A stretch of DNA of 64,000 nt from NCBI GenBank assembly GCA_009760855.2, contig WPIO01000003.1:14244001-14308000 (forward strand), written 5' to 3'. The notes beneath the pieces were generated by a model. It was not told where the DNA came from. It saw only the letters and a program-made list of their open reading frames with translations, and ran no database searches. Positions 1,127-63,998 of this stretch are shown here, in pieces. The translations under genes and the position numbers were made by a program. Source of the stretch: Cristatella mucedo. Taxonomy: Eukaryota; Bryozoa; Phylactolaemata; Cristatellidae. Every line of letters begins with the position of its first letter. The stretch's first letter is position 1.

Positions 1127-2355
1127 ATACAATAACAATAATAATACACTTGAAAAAGCGACCTCAGAATTCAATCTCTTTCTAGGCGCTTTACATTTGC
1201 TGCAAAGGAAACACGATCAAATGGTAAGTGATATCATGCTTAATAAATAACATGGTTAGGGGTGGCATGCACAGGGTGAGCATGCAATCGTAGTTAGCAG
1301 CAGCATGCACAGTGTCAGCACACATAAGCACATAAAGGACGAATCACAGCAACCCACTAAATACTGTCATAAATAGGTGCATTTGTTAATTCTTTTTAAA
1401 TGTGGTCAAGTCAGGGGATGTCGTAACGCAAGTCGGGAGCGAGTTCCAGGCTTTGGGAGCATACGAACTAAATGCACGGTTTCTAAAGGATTTGAGGTTT
1501 GTACGAGGTATAGGCAAACAGTTGGTTTCCGGAAAGCGGGTGGTACGATTCTTGGCCTGGTGGGAGAGTAGATCTCATAGGTAGGCTGGAGCCAAAGAAT
1601 GAAGGGAATCTAACAGAGAGCGACAAAACCTTGAAGTCGATCCGTTGCTTGACTGGTAGCCAGAGCAGGTCGGCAAGAAGTGGTGTGATGTGGCAACTGC
1701 GACGCCGATGACAGACAAGCCTAGCTGCAGAGCAATAGTTGAAGCGCCTACAGAACGTATAGTCCATTTCAAGTTTTGGTGTAGGATGTGTGCGAAGGAG
1801 GTTTGATTTAAATATAGCACTTTGGGCGAGGATGCGAACCCGTGCTTGAGGATCTCTCTTTAAGACAAAGGTTTCGCACAAGCTGTAAGCACGTGATTGC
1901 ACGTGCCGGTTGGCCTGCAAGCAGTGAGTTACAGAAGTCGACGGGATGTCACAAATGCACGGAACAACTTAGATGTGGTATCCCTATCTAAAAAAGCCCA
2001 AATTTTAGCAATGTTATGTAGCTGAAAGTAGGCAGACTTTATTGTGGAGCTGATGTGGTCGTCTAACGTCACTTTGGACCATGACATCCAGATTTCGTGC
2101 AGATTCAACAGGAGATATGCTGGCAGAGCCAATTTTGAGTGTTAGCCTTTCCTAATTCTGAATCATACTTGGTTTGCCCATAACTAGTAAGTTATTTTTA
2201 TCATAATTTAACTTAAGAAAATTTGCTGCCATCCATGTGCGGATGTCGTCAATACATACAGCAAGGGAGTTGAGAGAATTTGAGATGCTCGAAGGCTGGG
2301 AGGGATCAAAGCAAAGATACAACTGAGTGTCATCTATATAGAAGCGGACTCCCTG
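1127..2355 (-). mobile_element. LINE-B copy, antisense, RT C-terminal half plus 3' UTR
   Basis: Read on the minus strand, this is the 3' part of a CR1/L2-type non-LTR retrotransposon. Near 2340 a degraded RT active-site block reads FYIDDTQLYL. It is followed by thumb-like text, then DHISSTIKSAYFQLHNIAKI near 2050 and a C-terminal block ending in CSAARLVC and LLADLLWLPVKQRIDFKVL near 1700. The 3' UTR and hairpin tail run down to an AAT repeat at about 1127. Frames are interrupted by several stops. A 137-bp segment at 1736-1872 does not belong to the LINE and recurs at 3.5 kb. Confidence 0.8.
1736..1872. repeat. Perfect direct repeat, copy 1
   Basis: These 137 bases recur without a mismatch at 3462-3598 in the same orientation. 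Here they interrupt the antisense LINE-B between the DRDTTSKL-type block and the SAARLVC block. On the minus strand they keep an open frame of about 45 codons that fuses with LINE residues. Confidence 0.9.
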
Positions 2356-2780
2356 AAGCTGAACTGGTGCAGCAGTTCAGCATACTCGTGCCCTGGTCCT
2401 GTATGGACAATAAATTAGCTGTTCCGTTCCTCCGCTTAAAGATCGTTGGCGGCAGAAGCTTTAGCTCTGCAGGTCCTAGGCTATGGAACTCGCTCCAACA
2501 ATTCTTAAAAACGACAACTAGTGTCCTGTTGCCGTCTATGATTCATCCTTTCCAAAGGTAACGGGCTGCTACTTCCATGCTACTCACTGCCTCAACTGCT
2601 CTCCTGAATCTGCTATACTTCCAACTTTCTTTTTGTTTCGTGAGATGAATTCTGGTGGCTACCGAATGCGTACCAAAAGTCGTCTACGCTGTGAGTGTGC
2701 TATACAAAACTCTCCTGCGTAATACCCACATAGTCTTTGTGGCTTTGTGTAGTTACAGACGGAGATACATTACCTTTTTA
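2356..2780 (+). mobile_element. LINE-A 3' end, sense
   Basis: This begins in the C-terminal RT-associated region, with CMDNKLAVPFLRLK and SFSSAGPRLWNSL readable near 2400-2490. It continues through the conserved 3' segment with the YRMRT block into a GTTACAGACGGAGATACATTAC end. It directly abuts the oppositely oriented LINE-B copy. The element is 5' truncated and frameshifted. Confidence 0.8.
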
Positions 2781-3037
2781 TATGGTCATGCAGTAAGACG
2801 TTAGCTATAAGCGGCAGTACCGTCCCATTTTGAACTAAGTTAGCCGCACGTCGTATGCCATTGGATGTGCCACACGTAAACTGGCCTACGGCGTGCAAAA
2901 AGAAACGAATGCACACTAGCTCACGGAGTCACGAAGATGCTCGTTCCTGTATTCCGCGTTGAGGTTTTGGTAATAGTCCTTGCTTGGCCCCAATCCCCTC
3001 TCTTCCACGTGAAATGTCATTTCAATTTTAATATCAC

Positions 3038-3039
<2 letters not shown>
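2781..3039. other. Unassigned spacer
   Basis: No open frame of interest and no repeat match within the window were seen. Confidence 0.35.
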
Positions 3040-3093
<54 letters not shown>

Positions 3094-3097
3094 TATA
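3040..3097. repeat. AT dinucleotide microsatellite
   Basis: A nearly pure AT run of about 58 bases with one G interruption. It lies at the 3' tail of the antisense SINE-1 that follows, so it probably grew from that tail. Confidence 0.95.
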
Positions 3098-3229
3098 ATT
3101 CATTTATATAGCGCCCTAAGAGAACTTAATCTCTATTCAGGCGCTTTGCATATGCCTCGGAGCTCGAGCCCACGAACTCAGTCAGACCTTGGTCGGGGCG
3201 AGCACCTTAACCGCTAGACCAAACCAGCT
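3098..3229 (-). mobile_element. SINE-1, antisense, near full length
   Basis: On the minus strand it starts with GCTGGTTTGGTCTAGCGGTT (A-box-like), followed by GCTCGCCCCGACCAAGGTCTG and a B-box-like GGGCTCGAGCTCC. It ends in an L2-like hairpin tail of GCGCCTGAAT, AGAGATTAAGTTCTCT and GGGCGCTATA. The structure is that of a tRNA-derived SINE. Confidence 0.88.
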
Positions 3230-3254
3230 ACACCCTCTGTACATGTTAATTTTT

Positions 3255-3461
3255 TCTTTCGGTGAGCTTTCGTTAGCCAATAGACTTTAGCTCACGAAAT
3301 GAGAAAGAGGGTTGAGTGAGGAGGACAGTCGAGGAAGACGCGAGTGGCGTATCCGTAGCAGAGAAGAATGCCTGGAAAGGGCATGCCAGAGACGTCAGCG
3401 AGAGATGATACGGCAAGCCGCGAGGATTTGTTGAGCCGGAGCTTCATGAGCCGTACAAACC
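3255..3461 (-). mobile_element. LINE-A 3' end, antisense, diverged
   Basis: The minus strand gives a degraded version of the LINE-A terminal coding block, with YATRVFLDCPPHSTLFL aligning by eye to YATHYLNCSPDSAMLPTF of the better copies. It ends at the second copy of the 137-bp repeat. Confidence 0.6.
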
Positions 3462-3598
3462 TAGTTGAAGCGCCTACAGAACGTATAGTCCATTTCAAGT
3501 TTTGGTGTAGGATGTGTGCGAAGGAGGTTTGATTTAAATATAGCACTTTGGGCGAGGATGCGAACCCGTGCTTGAGGATCTCTCTTTAAGACAAAGGT
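3462..3598. repeat. Perfect direct repeat, copy 2
   Basis: Identical to 1736-1872 in the same orientation, 1726 bases downstream. The outer flanks are unrelated (LINE-B there, LINE-A and unassigned sequence here), so the duplicated segment is sharply bounded. Confidence 0.9.
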
Positions 3599-4887
3599 CA
3601 ATATAAAACTGGGTTATCTCGTAAGAACGCAGCACCGAGTAGCACCTCCGCCGCCGCAAGAATCAGTGGGTGCCCGAGTTCGGCTGCTCAGTGACGCCAG
3701 GTTTAATCAAGAGCTGGGCCGTGAGCCTCCGGTGCAAAACGAATGATTGTCATTTGCAACTCAATCAAATGACGCAGAAATAACTCTCGCATTGTCTTAG
3801 GAAGTCTTCCAAGCAGACAGCAGAGGAAAAAAACAGCGATGTAACGTTCTCCGATTATAGGAAGCAGCTGCACTGTTTGGTTGATGAGACGCGGTTAGAA
3901 ACAATAATCTGCTAATGGATTTAGTAGAAACATGCTTCAGCCGAAACCTTGAGTAGTAATTCTGCTGATGCTTGTAATTATTCAGCTTTCCATTTAGTGG
4001 AAGGTTTTTCTCTAAAGCTGACTGTTCCGGAGACAAGCATTCACTTAAGGGCGAGATGTATTTTGCTCTAAATTATACGAACTGCAAAATATTGTACTTG
4101 TGTGCCCTCCACGGCCAGCTAAATATTTTGTCTTTCGGATGCGCTTCGTGATTTGATATACTGTGAATAATCAAATAGTAGATGAGAGGAAGTAATTATT
4201 CATCTAATATTAATCACATCAGCAAAAGAAAGTCTATTATTTTTTCAAGAAACGCCGAGTTTACAAAATATAGAGCGGATATTTAGGTACCTGTAAAACT
4301 TCGCCTAGTAAGTGAGCTACTTTAAATAAAGTCATGCATGACTCTTAAAACTTGGTACTAATTTTTGAACATTTACTAGAGAAAAGAGGTCGCGACTCAA
4401 AACTTTGGTATGATCATGTCATAGGCTACGTGAGGGTCATAATAACAGCTCATCGTTACTTCTTCGAGGGATTTTAAAGGAAAGATGTCCATATGGTGTA
4501 GATTTAATTGAATTGCTAACGAACGAGCTTTTCTTCAGGTTTTTCTCTCAAAAAATGGCTCACGCCTGCTCAAAATGACCACAATTTAACTAAATTGACC
4601 CATCTCTTTTCTGAAGCTTATACGTTTGTGGTTATTCAGAAAAAGCTCTAGATGTGCACCAAAAGCACAATGAACTTGGGCAGCTAATTTTAAGCAAAGT
4701 TAACGGGAACGGAACGCTGGATGATCAAAATAAATTTTTCTTGCATCTTTGCCCAATGCTTGAAGTACTGTCTATGACAGGAAATGGCTGGGCTCTGCCA
4801 ATACTGTTTGAGCTTGTTACGTTGCTGCGGTTGCTTAGTGCATCTCGAACTCTCAGTGCTGCCTACACTTTGCGTCGGGCCCAGACT
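3599..4887. other. Unassigned AT-leaning sequence
   Basis: About 1.3 kb without a recognisable domain. The open frames are short and on both strands. Codon periodicity is not apparent by eye. It probably holds old, unrecognised repeats. Confidence 0.35.
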
Positions 4888-5030
4888 AATTTGTTTGGTC
4901 TAGCGGTTAAGGTGCTCGCCCAGACCAAGGTCTGACTGAAGTCGTGGGCTCGAGCCCCGAGGCATATGTGAAGCGCCTGAATAGAGATTAAGTTCTCCTG
5001 GGGCGCTATATAAATGAATTATATTTTATT
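4888..5030 (+). mobile_element. SINE-1, sense, near full length
   Basis: It reads TTTGGTCTAGCGGTTAAGG as the A-box region, GGGCTCGAGCCCC as the B-box region, then GCGCCTGAATAGAGATTAAG and GGGCGCTATATAAATG before an AT-rich tail. This is one of the cleanest copies and a useful reference for the family. Confidence 0.9.
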
Positions 5031-6175
5031 TATATTTAAAATATACCCGCATACTGCACCCTCTCGACTTAACTCTGCCACTTCAGGGTTACAGTAGTTT
5101 TGTAGGGCTACAGTAATAAGTTTCCCAACGCTTGTATATAAAATCATGAGCGTTTCCTCAAACGAAGAGAAGCAGTAAGCTCAGCGGATAGAATGCAAAA
5201 GTCTGCAGTCTCTATGATGTATTGATAGGTTGGAAACCGAATGGCAGCATTGTAGGAAAAAGATGGATCAGCAACACATTGATGCTCTCAAACTCACAGG
5301 AGGGTGCACAATTAACAAGCCTTCATTGCAGGAAAAAGAATGCCGATATAATGACAACTAAGTCTCGTCAACCGTCAGCGAGGCGATGCCAATTTTCACT
5401 CCATAGTCTTCGTAGCAGCGATGGCTACGCCAGTCGACCCTCCTTTGTGGAGCTGCATCATCTTTTTAATCGAAGCGATTACTTTGGCTGCAATTAGAGG
5501 TCAAACGACTCATTCAACCGTAAACATTCCAGCAAGTACGAACTGGGCGAAGATCCATAATGCAGTAGTAATACCTTGGTTGAGTTATCAGGATAATCTG
5601 AACCTTCCTGGTTTGCCTGGGCGGGGAGTGCCGCACAGAGATCAGCATGCATTAAAAAAAAAAATATTTCAGTGTACAATAGCACAAACCCATGCACAAT
5701 CCTCGGTTCTTGAAAATGACGCATTACAGCTACTCAACCGCTGTTGAATATGATGAAGCTCACTGCAACGAGGTGGAGTTCCAACAGTAAACCCATCCCC
5801 ACGTTAACCCAAGTAGGGAAGAATAGCCGCAGCGCCGTCGTCAAACATAAAACGATATTTGGATGGCGCTTGTTTAAAGAAGTTCTATTTGGAAAACGCC
5901 ACCGCGAGACAAAGGTTCTTCCGCTAAAATGGATGAGATAGACGTCGCAGGGTAGCGGAGCAGCCGTTATGCAATGAGGCTGAGGGTACAAGCATAGCTC
6001 GCAGCACAAGTCTCCTCGATAACCGACGCTCGATAGCGTCTGGCTGGTTCTCAGCCTTGCAGAGCCACTGGGATTGAAGCCGGTCGTTTGGAGGTGGAGA
6101 AATAGAATGACGACCCAGTCTACTCAAACGTTTTTATGCTTCCAACTAGCTAGATCTTCACAGGAGTTGTGACCA
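5031..6175. other. Unassigned sequence
   Basis: Open frames of up to 108 codons overlap on both strands around 5.2-6.1 kb without any motif I recognise. A single-exon gene is not supported. Confidence 0.35.
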
Positions 6176-21269: not shown

Positions 21270-22330
21270 CTCGGTTTAGCTGCATTTAGAGACATGTGTT
21301 GTCTGAAGCACATCTGTCTGCAACAAGCATCTGCTACCCAGGGATGAAGGGAAGAAGGGCGTATTAGCCCATATAGAATTGGATGTAATCCGTGAGTTGC
21401 TTTTATCGTTATTCCATTTAAGAAAATTTGTTTCTATCCGAGTGGGAATGCCAGCAGTACCCCGAGGCAAGAGCGTTGAGAGAGCTTGAGGTGCTGGACG
21501 CAGGTAGAGATCAACCACAGGTACAGCTATGTTTCATTACAATGAAAGTCCAGATTGTGCACTAGCACTACTGGCACTAGCTCGGATCTCTGGGGTACCC
21601 CACACCTCAGAGGCTCATCGAATGGCTGTTGATCGTTGACATTATTACTTTATAGCAGTGGTTCTCAACCTACCAAATGCCGCGACCCTTTAATACAGTT
21701 CCTCATGTTGCGGCAACCCCCAACCATACAATTATTGTGTGGAAAATGTGGAAATGCGTATTTTCTGATGGTCTTAGGCGACCCATGTGAAAGGGTTGTT
21801 CGACCTCCAAAGGGATCGCGACAGACTGGTTGAGAACAGCTGCTCTATAGTCTCCCATTGAGATAGGACCCACCCCATCGCAGTGCAGTGCCAGCGATGC
21901 CTAGGCGAGATGAGGGGTGCTCAAGAAGGACTTGGGGATCGATAGTAGCAGATGCTGCTGAAAGATTGAGCAAAACAAGCAGAGAGGCTGCACCTGACTC
22001 TGCATTCCTGTGAAAGTCTCTATACGCTCTCAGCAATGCTGACTCTGTAGAGTGACTACTACTAAAACCAGACTGGAATTTCCGTGCTAGTTTTGAAATT
22101 TTGATAAAATAAATTTGCTGGTATGCTACTACTCGTTGCAGTGTCTTTGATAGGAACCGCAGTAGGAAGGCTTTGGCATGTCACGAGAGGGAGGCTCTCA
22201 GTTTTCTTTAGGTGGGGATAAAAAGACTGACGAAGCTGCACACCTGCTGCACACTCACTGTGGATCTGTTTCTGGAGGAAGCCACCAAACTTTTTAGAGG
22301 GCTATTTTACAGGAGATATAGAAGTAATTC
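21270..22330 (-). mobile_element. LINE-B-type RT, antisense, split by a SPIN-like MITE
   Basis: On the minus strand an RT N-terminal part reads QSGFSSSHSTES near 22060 and LLNLSAASATIDPQVLLEH near 21950. These correspond to the HSTE and LDLSAAFDTID blocks of CR1/L2 RTs, with AFD degraded to ASA. The sequence resumes below 21640 with QLYLW text of the active-site block and its downstream region. Stops and frameshifts are frequent. The element is interrupted at 21656-21842 by a hAT MITE. Confidence 0.75.
21656..21842. mobile_element. SPIN-like non-autonomous hAT MITE, copy 1
   Basis: The 187-bp element begins CAGTGGTTCTCAACCT and ends GGTTGAGAACAGCTG, so the termini are inverted. Inside it reads GCCGCGACCCTTTAATACAG, TTCCTCATGTTG, ACCCCCAACCATA and GGTCTTAGGCGACCC. 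From memory this is the consensus layout of SPIN ('Space Invader') hAT MITEs. The flanks are CTTTATAG (21648-21655) and CTCTATAG (21843-21850), an 8-bp target-site duplication with one mismatch, as expected for hAT. Confidence 0.88.
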
Positions 22331-48867: not shown

Positions 48868-50268
48868 TCATGTAATGTAATGTATCTCCGTCAGTAACTC
48901 CACAAAGTCATAAAGACCATGTGGGTGTTACGCAGGAGAGTTTTGTATAGCGCACTCACAGCCTAAGCGGCTTTCGGTACGCATTCGGTAGCCAACAGAC
49001 TTCGTCTCACGCAACAAAGAGAAAGTGGGAAGCATAGCAGAGTCAGGAGAGCAGTTGAGGTAGTGAGTAGCATGGAAGTAGCAGTTCAGGACCGCTGAAA
49101 AAGATGTGCCACAGTCGGCAGTTGGAGAGTAGATGTCGTTGCGTAAGAATTGTGGAAGCGAGTTCCACAGTCTAGGACCTGCAGAGCTAAAGCTTCTGTC
49201 GCCAACTGTCTTTAAGCGGAGGAATGGGACAGCTAATTTATTGTCCACACAGGACCTGAGGGCGCGAACAGGCTGAAACTGATGCAGCAGTTCAGCTAGG
49301 TATGAAGGAGCCAAGCCGTGGCGGGCCTTGTGGGTCAGCGTAAGAACTTTGCTCTGTATCCTTTGCTCAATCGGCAACCATCCTAGCTCTTCCAGCAAAG
49401 GTGACACGTACTCAAACCGCTGGGACTTGAAGACCAGCCTTGCAGCCATATTCATAGTCTGCTGTAGTGGCATAATAGCTTTCTTTGGTAGCCCAGCCAA
49501 AAGGGAATTACAATAATCAACCCGAGATAGAACTAAAGAGCTAGTTAAATTTTTTACAAGCCACTGTGGGAGACAGCTTCTAATCTTGGATAGTGATCGG
49601 ATGTGATGGCTAGCTGTAGAGGCAGTCTTCTGAATGAAGCTTTTGAAATTGAGGCAGCTGTCGAACACGACACCTAGATTACGAGCACGTGGTGAAGGTC
49701 GCACAATAGCATCACCTATTAGAAGAGCAAAGCCTTTTAATCCAGCCACACGCTTAGGGTGTCCTATGAGCAGCAGTTCGGTTTTATCGTCATTTAATTT
49801 CAGGAAGTTTTCTGAAATCCAGGATTGAATATCGGCAAGGCGAGCATTCAGTTTTTCAGTTGCTGCAGCAGATTCCGACGGTTTAAATGACAAATACAAC
49901 TGAGTATCGTCAGCATAGAAGTGATATCCTATTCCATGAGCCTTAATCACTTTTCCCAGAGGTTGCGTATAAATGGAGAACAGCAAGGGACCAAGTACAG
50001 ACCCTTGAGGGACTCCACAGGTGACCCTTCTCATGTCTGAGACCTGACCCCCACACGACACGGATTGAACACGATCAGACAAGTAAGATTTAAACCATGC
50101 CAGTGCTTCGTCTGTCAGACCGATCGTTGTTCTCAGTCGTTCAAGCAGAACTTCGTGATCAATGGTGTCGAAGGCAGCAGACAGATCTAGCAGAGCTAAG
50201 GCAGTGACATTCCTGTCGTCGTTGCCACGGGAACTCATGGCTTTCATTATCAGTTGAGAGCAGACATC
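48868..50268 (-). mobile_element. LINE-A copy inserted in the hAT element
   Basis: It runs on the minus strand from within RT to the 3' tail, with the usual ATTACATTACAT end at 48868-48885. It is 5' truncated at about 50268, where hAT text resumes. This is the best-preserved LINE in the window and defines the family's RT and C-terminal region. Confidence 0.9.
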
Positions 50269-50310
50269 TTTACTAAACTTGAGAGTTGCCTTGCAAGTTC
50301 TTCTCATCAT
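48928..50310 (-). CDS. CR1/L2-type reverse transcriptase, 5'-truncated ORF2 (460 codons)
   Basis: This single open frame covers RT from the A motif onward. LDLSAAFDTIDHEVL lies at residues 41-55, GVPQGSVLGPLLFSIY at 99-114 and the active site FYADDTQLYL at 131-140, followed by ENFLKLNDDKTELLLIGHP. SLSKIRSCLPQW and LVLSRVDYCNSLLAGLP lie before a cysteine-poor C-terminal region with LAVPFLRLKTVGDRSFSSAG and PRLWNSLPQFL. The first ~14 residues are read from hAT flanking DNA, so the start Met is accidental. The endonuclease and RT N-terminus are missing, so autonomous activity is not possible. The retained frame argues for a recent insertion. Confidence 0.88.
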   Translation of the reverse strand: MMRRTCKATLKFSKDVCSQLIMKAMSSRGNDDRNVTALALLDLSAAFDTIDHEVLLERLRTTIGLTDEALAWFKSYLSDRVQSVSCGGQVSDMRRVTCGVPQGSVLGPLLFSIYTQPLGKVIKAHGIGYHFYADDTQLYLSFKPSESAAATEKLNARLADIQSWISENFLKLNDDKTELLLIGHPKRVAGLKGFALLIGDAIVRPSPRARNLGVVFDSCLNFKSFIQKTASTASHHIRSLSKIRSCLPQWLVKNLTSSLVLSRVDYCNSLLAGLPKKAIMPLQQTMNMAARLVFKSQRFEYVSPLLEELGWLPIEQRIQSKVLTLTHKARHGLAPSYLAELLHQFQPVRALRSCVDNKLAVPFLRLKTVGDRSFSSAGPRLWNSLPQFLRNDIYSPTADCGTSFSAVLNCYFHATHYLNCSPDSAMLPTFSLLRETKSVGYRMRTESRLGCECAIQNSPA

Positions 50311-50585
50311 AGCTGTATCAGTTGCCAGTTATGAACGTTCATTTAGCAAGTTGGAGATAGTCCCCTCTTATCTGAGAACATCACTGAGGCAAGATAGACT
50401 CTCTGATTTTGCTTTGTTAAGCATAAAGAAACACTGGAAAATATTGACTTTCAAACTGCAGTTGACCAGTTTTTCACTTTTGATGCCCGAAACATTTAGC
50501 TACTTTAAAACTGTGATGGCTACTTTGAACCTGTATTATATAGTTGAAACAACTTTCTCGACTCGATATGCCTGTTAGCGTGTGG

Positions 50586-53408: not shown

Positions 53409-54356
53409 TCAGGAACAGGGACCGCACGGCTTCCGAGCTGGTAAGGCGTCGGAGACGCAGTGCCGCCTCAAAGCCGTCTTCTCTGAGTATGGGATGCCGA
53501 GTTCGGCCAGGCAAGCTTCATTGTCTGGCCACCTGCTACCGATAGCCCCGACCACGAAATGCCTCACCACTGCCTACCGGTAGCCAGCGGTCAGGAAAGA
53601 CCGGGCAATGGCTGCACATTTATCGGTCTTGTTCCGGGCCGCCGCAATCAGAGCATCCTCGCTGCTGTCGAATGGCACGGTCACATCCACAAGTACTAAA
53701 ACAGTGCCGTTGTCAATGAAGAAGTGTGGCTGGAGAGCCAGACCGCCGGCAAGCGGGAGGGCTCGACCTGCCGACATGTAGTTAAGCGTGGTGACCGGAA
53801 GAGCTCCGATTAGGCGACCCAGAACCAGGTTGTGTCGGGCCGTAATAGCATGCAGCATCGGCCGGCAGTGGCTCAGCACATGGCGAACGGTCTCTCCCTC
53901 CGTGCGGCACAGGCGGCAGCTGGTAAACGTCCCTGAGTATGCCCGAATCCTGGCAGTAGCCACTGGTAGCACGTCCAGGCGCTCGGTGCACAAACCGCCA
54001 AGCCCGAATGACAGGCCAAGATCACTGGTTGAGAAGTGACTGTGGATGATGAATGTGCCCGTGGCCAGGCAGCGGCTGACCCTGCCCTGTGCAGGCTGGG
54101 CCGCCCAAGCGCGGCCTTCCACCAGCCTGGCGAACTCTCGCAGCTTCGTGATGATCACTCGTGGCACGATGCCGTCAGGGTCGGTGGACACAACCAGCAC
54201 ATCAGGGCCGGTCAGCAAGAGGCGACAGGAGAGCCACCCGAGACACTTCGCGAACACGCACGCACAGCACATGGCACACACTCGTCCGACCGTAGCGAAA
54301 TCGGGCCAACCCAGTTGCCAGGGCCGAAAGCTGCCGGACGCAGGTATCGCGAACAC
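53409..54356 (-). pseudogene. R2/R4-like ORF C-terminus: zinc finger and endonuclease domain
   Basis: The first 260 residues are open. C147, C150, H159 and C164 form a CX2CX8HX4C finger within CRLCRTEGETVRHVLSHC. HNLVLGRL follows, then VLVLVDVTVPFD at residues 219-230 and RNKTDKCAAIARSF, which fit the restriction-like endonuclease region of this group. A TAG at 53574-53576 interrupts the frame. The same frame continues as AVVRHFVVGAIGSRWPDNEA, typical of the family's C-terminus, to a TGA at 53409. The KPD-type triad is not clearly preserved. Confidence 0.78.
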
Positions 54357-54723
54357 TTCTCATAAGACGACGGCGTGCACTCTATGCTGGCGATGCATCG
54401 GGCCAGCACGGCGTGCTGTAGGCTTGCGTAGCTCTTATGACGGAGGCGTCCTTCCTGAAGCGGATCAGCCAAGCCGGCCGCAGAGCGAGGCGAAAACGGG
54501 AAATGCACCGATTCCAAGTTCTGCAGACCGCACGCAAAGCGACACAGTTCCATCAGAGCCTTTTCGGCTGGTTGCTGAGCGGCCTTAGGCATAAGCCGCA
54601 GCCGACAAAGGTAGCCGAGCCGTGGCATGAGGAAAGTCCGCGAGGCGTCAAGCTTGTGCCAAGGGGCCAGAAGGCTCGCCTGAAGCAGGTTAATGTCCCT
54701 TTCAAGGGAAGAGCAGGTCTGCT

Positions 54724-55329
54724 CTATCTCAGCCCTAGGCTGCCCGAGACCCTGCGGGGCTCCAAGGTCGAGGCCACTGACTCGGTCTCCGGCAGCTCGG
54801 GCAGTCGCCTGTCACGTAGAGTGATTGAGATGGGCACGGACTTCGCACCCTTTCGGGCGACGAAACAGCACTTCGCTGGCCGGTACTGCATGCCCAGCGT
54901 CGACGCAGCGTATTCAACTTCGGACATGAGGGCCTGAAGACCAGAAGACGTGCATGAGAACAGGGCAAGGTTATCTGCCAAGGCACAGACCGATAGGGAG
55001 GTTCCGCCAATCTGGAAACAGTATTCGTGCATGTTACCAGCGAGTCTGACAACCAGTTCCATCGCCATCTCAAAGTGGATCGGTGATAGACGTTCGCTCT
55101 GCCGCACGCCGGCAGTCGTAGGAAATGCCACCAGCGTCTCGCCGCGCACCCAAAGCTCCAGGAGCGACCCGGTATACAGGCGCTCAACAAACCTGTAGAA
55201 GCTCTCCTCCACTCCGGCATGCCGAAGCACGCTGAGAAGTAGAATGTGGAATACTGCCGAAGGAATTCTGTTGCTCAGGAAACGCCGAGTACACAACGTC
55301 AGCGCCCTGCCGATCACACACACCCACAT
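54724..55329 (-). pseudogene. R2/R4-like reverse transcriptase fragment
   Basis: 201 codons containing LRHAGVEESFYRFVERLYTG, AGVRQSERLSPIHFEMAME (GVRQG.PLSP block, Gly changed to Ser) and CALADNLALFSCTSSGLQAL. The last is the active-site block with YADD degraded to LADN, so the second catalytic Asp is lost. The region between this frame and the endonuclease (54212-54724) continues in other frames, showing frameshifts. Confidence 0.78.
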
Positions 55330-55352
55330 ACAAAATTTTGTGGATCCTTTAT

Positions 55353-55683
55353 TGTAACGGCTAGTAGCCGATAAAGCGATTTTCTATTGCCGATGTCGAA
55401 TAAAAGACGACGCTCTGAGATAAGCAAGGAGTTGTGCTTTCGAAGTCGGCATTGACATTTGAGCTAGTTTGACCTCTAGGCCGCTGAGCCATTGGTGCAC
55501 GTCAAGGCCACTGTTGAATGCCCATAACCCTCAGTCGCTGTCAAATAGACGTCTGAACGCAATGAATGTGGTAATAATAAAAACAGTATTCGTCGCACAA
55601 TAACTTTTACTAGCGCCATTACGAGAGCTGCGTTTGCGGCCTAGTCCTTCCGGACGTAGACACTGCACACCAAGTTTGTTAAA
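55353..55683 (+). mobile_element. Solo-LTR-like element, copy 1 (most complete)
   Basis: It starts TGTAACGGCTAGTAGCCG. It contains GCCGATGTCGAATAAAAGAC, GAGATAAGCAAGGAGTTGTG, GACCTCTAGGCCGCTGAGCC, ATTACGAGAGCTGCGTTTGC, GGCCTAGTCCTTCCGGACG and ends near AAGTTTGTTAAA. With the other copies this defines a family of about 330-380 bp with TGTAAC...GTTACA inverted ends, the form expected for an LTR. Confidence 0.78.
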
Positions 55684-56555
55684 AATACCTCTTCATAACA
55701 TTAATATGACAGCGTCTAAAGGGACACGCATATAACGTACGTGTAGGTCAGCAAGTAGAGTAATGGAAGTACCCATTCGTACCTCCGAGATTCTGAGAAT
55801 AGTAGGGTTACTGAGCATGGCTAGTGAGCAGCTGAGGTCCAACGGGCTCCAACAGAAGCTCGAACAGCTAAATTCACGGAAATAAATTTGAAATCATACA
55901 TATCTGCTTTTTGAACTACGATTATAGTCACTTCAATATCTTTTGGCCTAATGAAAACGACCGTTACTTTAAATAGAAACCCCAGTCACCGATTGGTAAA
56001 CACATCAGCCGCCAACCGGTCTGTCGTTGGTTATTGCAGTCAACAGCAGTGTTGAGATTCGTCGCGCGTAGTTCTTTAAAGCTAGTCAGATGAACTGCGG
56101 TTTCATCCAAGAAATTTGGAAGGAAGGAGTTGGCGCTCGTGAGCTCTCATGCTAATCGAACTTGTTCTGTCTACGGCGAGAGGACACAAGACTCTCGTCG
56201 CATTGCGACAGAATTAACAAAACAGGAATCCTGGCCCCCAGATGCCCGGATTTACTAGCCTAAGCATAGGAATATACAGCAGGCGCAACATAAGCTGAAT
56301 ACACAGCACGCGTATGGAAGGAAAAAATCTCGACCGTAGGCTGAGTACAAAGGATAAAGCCGGCCGTCCAGCTTACCGGAAACGAAAACTCTTGCCACTG
56401 GCCTAATTTATTCCGACGCGCTGAGTTTTAGTCACTTTTTTATGAGAATCTATTAAGATAATAGATCTGCTTGTTTTTGGCTCGCATGTTCTCTGACGTT
56501 GGGCACCGAGTGAGACCAGAAAGCGTCGACCTAGCCACCATCTTGTTCATTTCAG
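55684..56555. other. Unassigned sequence upstream of candidate exon
   Basis: 55763-55884 has a short open stretch starting MEVPIRTSEILRIVGLL, which could be internal LTR-element sequence but has no readable domain. 56470-56555 would be intron or 5' flank of the candidate exon. Confidence 0.3.
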
Positions 56556-56911
56556 GAATGGACAAGAGGCTTTTAGGAGTGTTGCTCATCATTCTGGCCA
56601 CAGTTGGCTCTGCTGCTGCCCTGAGTGAGCAATTGGTCAGCGAATGGGACGACGAAATGAAAGCACTCGACGAGAAGAGGACGCTCAAGCCGTTGACGTA
56701 CCCTACGGACTGCAGATCGCAGAAGCTGGTTAACACGGCCAAGAAAGCCGGCCTAACTGTGGAATCCGGAGGCAATCATTTCGTGGTTTATCATGTGTCA
56801 AAGTTTGTTACAACGATTCCATACACTGTCAAACAAAACTACACATGCGCAAGCATTATTGACACGATCAATAGTTACATAAAAGAGGCAAATCGATACG
56901 CTGCGACAGCA
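56556..56911 (+). CDS. Candidate exon: small secreted protein of unknown function
   Basis: A pyrimidine-rich stretch ending TTCATTTCAG (AG at 56554-56555) precedes GA-ATG (ATG at 56558), a good acceptor context. The ATG opens a 118-codon segment ending at a possible GT donor (GCA|GTAAAT, 56912). The frame itself stays open well beyond. Residues 1-21 (MDKRLLGVLLIILATVGSAA) look like a signal peptide. The mature part is charged, then has KLVNTAKKAGLTVESGGNHF at 56-75, an NYT glycosylation site at 94 and two cysteines (52, 97). The order AGL-x-V-x-S-GGNH-then-IP loosely recalls the HicA/YcfA-like fold, an inference only. No promoter or other exon was located, and the downstream neighbour is a LINE-A fragment. 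Confidence 0.5.
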
Positions 56912-57034
56912 GTAAATAAATTGCAGTCTTCAAGTTCTTTTTCGCTAGTCCTTGCCACACTATTCTATGCCCCCGGCCATTACCGTCAGCGTCTGGCCCA
57001 GCGGTGGCTAGCCACCAGCAGATGCCTGAATCTT

Positions 57035-57415
57035 GACACAGAAAAAATGCAGAATTGTTTTATTAAATGTAACGCTTTTAGTGGGCAGAGCAGAAGGTTT
57101 TGCTCTACATGTTCTAGACTTCAGAGCCAATTTCCGCAGTTCTTGTTCAAAAGTGTCTACTCTCCTGCTACCAAATCTGGCATATCATTTGCAGCTGTCC
57201 GCCGCTGCTACTTCCACTCCACTCATTTCGTTGAGTGCACTTCTAGACATAGTTATGCTACCTACTTATTCATTGTTGTCTGAGACAGTCTGTTGGCAAC
57301 CGCTTTTACACCGGCAGCTGTCATTCAGCTTTGAGTGCCCGTAGACAACTTCCCTGCGTAACACTTATTTAATCCTTGGCGCTGTGTGGAGTTACAGAAG
57401 AAGATACATACTATA
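57035..57415 (+). mobile_element. LINE-A 3' end, sense, diverged
   Basis: SGQSRRFCSTCSRLQSQFPQ (cf. DRSFSSAGPRLWNSLPQ), RCYFHSTHFVECTSRHS (cf. CYFHATHYLNCSPDS), LLATAFTPAAVIQL-like end text and GGAGTTACAGAAGAAGATAC identify the family. It is older than the 37- and 49-kb copies. Confidence 0.75.
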
Positions 57416-60392: not shown

Positions 60393-60655
60393 GTGCATGT
60401 TACCACTAAGCAGTTGACTATGCTTCCTTTACAGGGCATGTAAAGTACCTAGAATAGTGGTTCTCATCCTTCCTAATGCCGTGACACTTTAATACAGTTC
60501 CTCATATTGTGGCGACCCCCAACCACAAAATTTGTGTGTGCGTGTTTTTCAATGGTCTTAGGCAACCCCTGTGAAAAGATCGTTTGACCCCCAAAGGGGT
60601 CGCGACCCACAGGTTGAGAAACGCTGGCCTAAAAAGAGATTAAGTTCCTTTCTTA
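60393..60655 (+). mobile_element. LINE-B 3' tail, sense, split by SPIN-like MITE
   Basis: TGTGCATGTTACCACTAAGC, CTTCCTTTACAGGGCATGTA and AAGTACCTAGAA precede the MITE. AAAAAGAGATTAAGTTCC follows it and completes the hairpin region. Confidence 0.72.
60455..60626. mobile_element. SPIN-like non-autonomous hAT MITE, copy 2
   Basis: 172 bp, beginning TAGTGGTTCTCATCCTTCC and ending GGGTCGCGACCCACAGG, then TTGAGAAACGCTG. Internal blocks TTTAATACAGTTCCTCATAT, GTGGCGACCCCCAACCA and ATGGTCTTAGGCAACCCCTG match copy 1 in order. Flanks ACCTAGAA and GCCTAAAA agree at 6 of 8 positions, compatible with a decayed 8-bp duplication. Confidence 0.85.
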
Positions 60656-63492: not shown

Positions 63493-63725
63493 TTTACGCG
63501 GCGCGCACCGGATCAACGGGGTTAAATGCGCGAACTACCGAAGTCCGAGTATAACCAACTACCCTGTGCGTTTACGCGGCGCGTATCGGTCCGACGGAGT
63601 TAACTGCACGAACTCCCGAAGCCCGACTATAATAACTACCCTACGCGTTTACGCGGCGTGTACCGGACCGACGGAGTTAACTGCGCGAACTCCCGAAGTC
63701 CGAGTATAACTAACTACCCTATGCG
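63493..63725. repeat. Minisatellite, three units of about 78 bp
   Basis: Units start TTTACGCGGCG at 63493, 63571 and 63648. Each contains GGAGTTAACTGC or a variant, GCGAACTCCCGAAG, CCGAGTATAA and AACTACCCT. Unit lengths are 78, 77 and about 78. They differ at roughly one base in ten, so they are not a recent duplication. Confidence 0.9.

Positions 63726-63906: not shown

Positions 63907-63998
<92 letters not shown>
63907..63998. repeat. CT microsatellite at window end
   Basis: At least 90 bases of pure CT, running to the end of the window. Confidence 0.96.

Follow-up and report, generated by a model that had tools for sequence, protein, structure and literature searches.

A SPIN-like non-autonomous hAT element inside a LINE and its many-copy family in an invertebrate genome

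The stretch of DNA analysed here (64,000 nucleotides, referred to as the window) contains a 187-bp element that is inserted in a decayed LINE and represents a dispersed family with common ends and interior that numbers about a thousand copies or more. Judging from published mouse primers and from a mouse element whose presumed sequence serves as a lead, this family very likely belongs to SPIN. We consider it highly probable that the element is a non-autonomous SPIN (Buster-type hAT), that it was mobilised in trans after SPIN had entered this invertebrate lineage and that the family has been silent since. The features of the window on which the analysis is built are the following.

21648..21655, plus strand: left target-site duplication of copy 1, CTTTATAG, 8 bp
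21656..21842, plus strand: SPIN-like non-autonomous hAT element (MITE), copy 1, 187 bp, to which other genome copies align over the whole length
21656..21670, plus strand: left terminal inverted repeat of copy 1, CAGTGGTTCTCAACC, 15 bp
21828..21842, plus strand: right terminal inverted repeat of copy 1, GGTTGAGAACAGCTG, 15 bp
21843..21850, plus strand: right target-site duplication of copy 1, CTCTATAG, with 7 of 8 letters as in the left one
21518..22165, minus strand: decayed CR1/L2-like LINE reverse-transcriptase segment, interrupted by copy 1, whose joined flanks align to the LINE frame of locus L034
60447..60454, plus strand: left flank of copy 2, ACCTAGAA, a worn target duplication, 6 of 8 letters alike
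60455..60626, plus strand: second family copy (copy 2), 172 bp, internally 15 nt shorter and 77% identical to copy 1, gap included
60627..60634, plus strand: right flank of copy 2, GCCTAAAA, 6 of 8 letters alike

The preliminary description had claimed a 187-bp element with inverted ends between CTTTATAG and CTCTATAG flanks, and the analysis confirmed it at the same coordinates, with 13 of 15 positions of the terminal inverted repeats paired and the flanks alike at 7 of 8. A pattern scan for inverted ends bordered by direct flanks (15-bp inverted ends with an exact 8-letter seed and at most 3 mismatches, 100-900 bp apart, and 8-bp direct repeats with at most 1 mismatch) returned a single place in the whole window, copy 1, and the same scan found no such structure in any of 10 second-order Markov resamplings of the window. 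Copy 2, more worn and not listed with this finding in the preliminary description, fell outside the limits of the scan, its flanks being mismatched at 2 of 8 positions. Being short (187 bp), noncoding and many-copied (1,150 and 1,002 genome places for the two probes described below), copy 1 has the properties of a MITE; it is an ordinary fossil of this kind, with no evident function.

The position of the element inside a LINE, also claimed at the outset, was borne out by its surroundings. Minus-strand sequence on either side of copy 1 aligns to CR1/L2-like reverse transcriptases elsewhere in the same genome. Excising the element in silico together with one copy of the 8-base duplication restored a LINE alignment that is gap-free at the junction, with 94 of 166 positions identical (E 2e-46) to the reference used for this comparison, a 560-aa LINE frame at locus L034 of the same genome; with the site left occupied, the alignment to that frame falls into separate pieces. 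The present-day LINE copy around the element has in-frame stops.

The genome searched comprises 572,011,866 bases in 688 contigs, and the window belongs to that assembly. A DNA search with the element gave at least 41 matches, the window's own included (the best 40 of 2,115 first-look candidates being scored). Two probes, each allowed up to 3 mismatches, gave a wider count: a 29-letter probe from the 5' internal part matched 579 + 571 = 1,150 places, and the count for a 30-letter one taken from the 3' internal part was 489 + 513 = 1,002. More worn copies escape both probes. Reversed-pattern controls of the 29- and 30-letter probes matched 0 and 0 places in the whole genome. Among 25 places taken without regard to the element (237.5 kb without N), we found one near-full copy (L014) and a 65-bp piece (L012). 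Extrapolation from these two matches would put the copy number at a few thousand, with a very wide error. The L012 piece has a SPIN-like 5' end over its 65 bp; a longer SPIN variant was sought there, and no 3' end (at least 11 of 15 letters) was found downstream within that locus. On contig C676, two family copies lie in opposite orientation with 86 bases between them (2828050-2828224, minus strand, and 2828311-2828503, plus strand).

An alignment of 22 rows was assembled from 20 of the at least 41 matches (copy 1, seven loci and 12 more), L014 and copy 2 of the window; 21 of the matches listed and the partial L012 were left out. The resulting consensus is 187 bp long and its ends pair at 14 of 15 positions. 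The preliminary description had named genome-wide copy number and divergence as a check on its reading, and both could be obtained: besides the probe counts, 21 rows differ from the consensus by 3.2-8.7% substitutions, and L014 by 11% over 172 aligned bp, its last 14 letters not aligning. Every one of the 22 rows departs from the consensus. The two window copies stand at 8.6% (copy 1) and 8.7% (copy 2), and the 19 rows chosen by likeness to the window copy at 3.2-8.0%; because of that choice, these figures understate the divergence of the whole family.

According to excerpts of two papers, hAT elements as a superfamily have short inverted repeats at their termini and duplicate 8 bp of the target (PMC3942097, PMC11008031). 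Both features occur here, and the duplication is 7-8/8 alike in 14 of the 22 rows (8/8 in 5 and 7/8 in 9, followed by 6/8 in 3 and 4/8 or less in 5, the last including L014, whose right flank is extrapolated for want of an aligned right end). The mean duplication match was 6.2 of 8, compared with 4.2 when partners were swapped (largest value 5.1 in 2,000 swaps). In Buster-group hAT elements the target duplications are centred on TA (nnnTAnnn). The commonest target-site letters of the 22 rows are C-T-T(or C)-T-A-G-A-G, a CTYTAGAG-like site, and of 44 half-sites 38 have T at position 4 and 38 have A at position 5, placing the family with the TA-centred Buster type. A difference in target choice between Ac and Buster is described in the excerpted text of PMC3942097.

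We then come to the identity of the family. SPIN ends read CAGYGGTTCTCAACC, and the ends of copy 1 differ from this sequence by 0 and 1 mismatches; between the two ends of the consensus there is a mismatch at 1 of 15 positions. For the mouse Ate1 locus, two reverse primers, R1 and R2, are printed side by side in the excerpts of two sources (PMC2767504, PMC2837401), and a primer sequence for mouse Kcnq1ot1 is given in an excerpt of a third (PMC6221546). In these excerpts none of the mouse primers is called SPIN. R2, which came to light independently of the string searched for, agrees with the consensus at 18 of 20 positions (113-132). R1 matches the 3' end of the consensus, likewise at 18 of 20 positions, with one letter outside the element, and the Kcnq1ot1 R primer agrees at 19 of 20 (consensus 109-128); most of each of these two matches arises by construction, since the primers were found via the 15-letter terminal inverted repeat and a 14-letter string from the copies, respectively. 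These comparisons used an 11-row consensus, which by eye differs from the 22-row consensus at one letter outside the primer sites. Of the single copies, copy 1 matches R1, R2 and Kcnq1ot1 R at 16, 17 and 18 of 20 positions and copy 2 at 17, 19 and 16, and the best matches to the shuffled consensus reached 15-16 of 20 (2,000 shuffles per primer). The likeness to mouse sequence thus reaches the interior of the element.

The Ate1 and Kcnq1ot1 primer sequences are presumably SPIN. A lead came from comparison with a presumed sequence of the mouse URR1 MITE, which we take to be of SPIN type: the 22-row consensus matched it at 79 of 81 positions of the left part and at 41 of 42 of the right part, about 97%, with a different middle. 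Against the same presumed sequence, copy 1 scored 74/81 and 32/37 and copy 2 scored 70/77 and 39/41. The URR1/SPIN_NA MITEs of tetrapods resemble the family described here in their ends, in their end regions (about 97% on the presumed sequence), in the 8-bp duplication and, if the primer sequences are SPIN, in the interior covered by the primer sites, and differ from it in that their hosts are tetrapods, whereas the present host is an invertebrate. They also differ in that consensus positions 82-145 of 187 have no alignment with the presumed mouse form; positions 109-132 nevertheless match the mouse primers.

These comparisons bear on a different explanation of the ends, namely that the element is another Buster/Charlie-type hAT MITE, inherited vertically, whose ends came to resemble those of SPIN by convergence on transposase binding sites. 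Ends like CAGYGGTTCTCAACC occur in many Charlie/Buster elements, and no SPIN transposase was seen among the at least 138 hAT domain matches presented below, where the ends of one copy were read. We nevertheless regard this explanation as unlikely: primer R2 agrees with the interior of the consensus, and the likeness to the presumed mouse MITE sequence, at 81 bp and 42 bp, reaches well past the 15-bp ends. The assignment to SPIN made in the preliminary description thus stood in part; the genome family over the full 187 bp, the TA-centred target, the primer match and the likeness of the end regions to the presumed mouse sequence speak for it, and taken as a whole it is partly supported. Its further suggestion, that a blood-feeding, parasitic or aquatic life style may be relevant, is neither favoured nor disfavoured by the results.

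A profile search of the genome with the hAT C-terminal domain (PF05699) gave at least 138 matches, the best 150 of 766 candidates being scored. Among the 138 listed, 55 are scored identically (76.8 bits), and an open frame of 635-642 aa is present in 16; the equal scores and open frames together suggest one young hAT family, examples of which lie at C19:1010804-1011040 and C110:3941640-3941876. As a source of SPIN transposase this high-scoring family was set aside, because the surroundings of one copy show no SPIN end (best 10 of 15 letters) in the 601 and 701 bases covered on its two sides, beyond which the true ends may lie. By eye, the BED and C-terminal sequences of that copy look Ac/ZBED-like. 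An autonomous SPIN copy, which the preliminary description had proposed as a further check, was not found, with ends read for that one of the at least 138 hAT matches. Two other pieces, neither of them linked to SPIN, were noted in passing: at L034, a DUF4371 match that scores under the cut-off of that family, and at window 50258-50575 on the plus strand, part of a hAT C-terminal dimerisation domain (PF05699, E 9.5e-07), probably a remnant of another hAT.

The young-looking hAT family, with its shared scores and open frames, is what could be put forward for the idea that the SPIN-like family is still mobilised today by a resident transposase and is active, not fossil. The sequences of the copies speak against this: even the 19 copies picked for likeness stand at 3.2% or more from the consensus, the two window copies lie at the upper end of the range, and no row of the 22 equals the consensus. 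We therefore consider continued mobilisation quite improbable.

SPIN being best known from tetrapods, vertebrate DNA contaminating the assembly might also account for the element, and the character of the host genome is relevant to this. The CpG observed/expected ratio is 0.79 and G+C 0.467 (301.5 kb, window included). COX1 was located on a 21,008-base contig (C688), where TGA faces W at 13 of 15 mouse COX1 sites, ATA faces M at 9 of 11 and AAA faces K at 2 of 2. The COX1 Pfam score was 503.1 bits with genetic code 5 and 504.4 with code 13, compared with 487.4 for codes 9 and 14, 483.2 for code 24 and 481.4 for code 4. The vertebrate mitochondrial code 2 was rejected, as it breaks the frame (longest unbroken COX1 stretch 201 aa vs 517). 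The code-13 (tunicate) reading is disfavoured by the AGR codons, of which three face S, four face A and one each faces T, K and G in mouse COX1. The mitochondrial code and the CpG ratio fit an invertebrate host that uses code 5; the codes of flatworms and echinoderms give a poorer fit. By impression, the COX1 protein of this contig looks lophotrochozoan. Contamination is accordingly extremely improbable: apart from the CpG ratio and a mitochondrial contig that fits invertebrate codes, the family occupies more than 1,000 places on contigs of up to 24.8 Mb, its copies lie 3-9% from the consensus (L014 11% over its aligned part), and the host LINE has a relative elsewhere in the same genome.

Three observations concern the mitochondrial sequence itself. 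COX1 pieces occur on four other contigs and are perhaps nuclear copies. Next to nad3 on contig C688, a stretch of about 2.1 kb is directly duplicated (L043, about 1992-3955 and 4107-6058), and the genes recognised by eye in 8.5 kb of this contig all lie on one strand.

Collectively, the family is best read as a silent, non-autonomous SPIN, and we propose the following course of events. SPIN would have entered the invertebrate lineage from another animal and then amplified. An autonomous SPIN or a close relative would have supplied the transposase, a Buster-type hAT enzyme predicted to bind the ends of the element and excise it, and to insert it at a CTYTAGAG-like site through a cut staggered by 8 bp. 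Copies would have been cut and pasted in trans, because a copy is too short to hold a transposase gene. After amplification the family would have fallen silent, as suggested by two window copies that each stand about 9% from the consensus and lack a gene. If the identity holds, membership in SPIN implies horizontal transfer and places this lineage among the recipients of SPIN. A noncoding identity of about 97% between mouse and an invertebrate would require such a transfer, an argument whose strength depends on the presumed mouse sequence.

SPIN is one of the textbook examples of transposons passing between animals that are only distantly related; the route of its transfer (parasites, viruses or shared habitats) is still argued. 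The pond snail Lymnaea stagnalis carries a hAT family, attributed to Gilbert et al. 2010, that is reportedly SPIN. Excerpts of a study on Rhodnius indicate that SPIN, OC1, hAT and ET occur in this genus, with SPIN_NA_12_RP and SPIN_NA_13_RP in Rhodnius prolixus (PMC11614815). The SPIN_NA elements of R. prolixus are, by description, likewise non-autonomous members of SPIN with an invertebrate host; for the piRNA clusters of the bug, those excerpts give fewer than 5 copies of SPIN, against about 1,000 or more genome-wide here, although the two measures differ (PMC11614815). A hAT transfer involving Rhodnius and the pond snail appears in part of another source, and the Lymnaea family is, again by description, similar to ours in being shared between vertebrates and an invertebrate (PMC4344730).

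Among the papers listed in the literature covered, with most subscription journals outside its scope, none was recognised that describes SPIN in an additional invertebrate, and priority is not claimed. Searches of phage and plasmid records and of Rfam, and exact-pattern scans of viral and prokaryote contigs, found no SPIN; three viral contigs matching an 18-letter piece were dismissed as chance, the sole match below E 0.001 in each being that 18-19-letter stretch. SPIN as a kind of element is already known, and the invertebrate host could be new. We tentatively raise the possibility, short of favouring it, that a further, unreported invertebrate lineage took up SPIN horizontally and amplified the 187-bp form to a thousand or several thousand copies, so becoming a datable waypoint in its spread or even a reservoir or donor. 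Each added many-copy invertebrate host provides a divergence that can be compared with host splits, which makes the time and setting of transfer testable.

Several other features of the window were noted. On the minus strand, 53574-55383 contains pieces that by eye are R2/NeSL-like LINE, with an RVT_1 match at 54727-55383. An open frame at 56465-57283 on the plus strand has a secretion-signal-like start and, by eye, a HicA-like stretch, and runs into a LINE tail; a Pfam search of this frame gave no match. A 77-bp tandem repeat is present three times at 63493-63725, near a TC array at 63907-63997.
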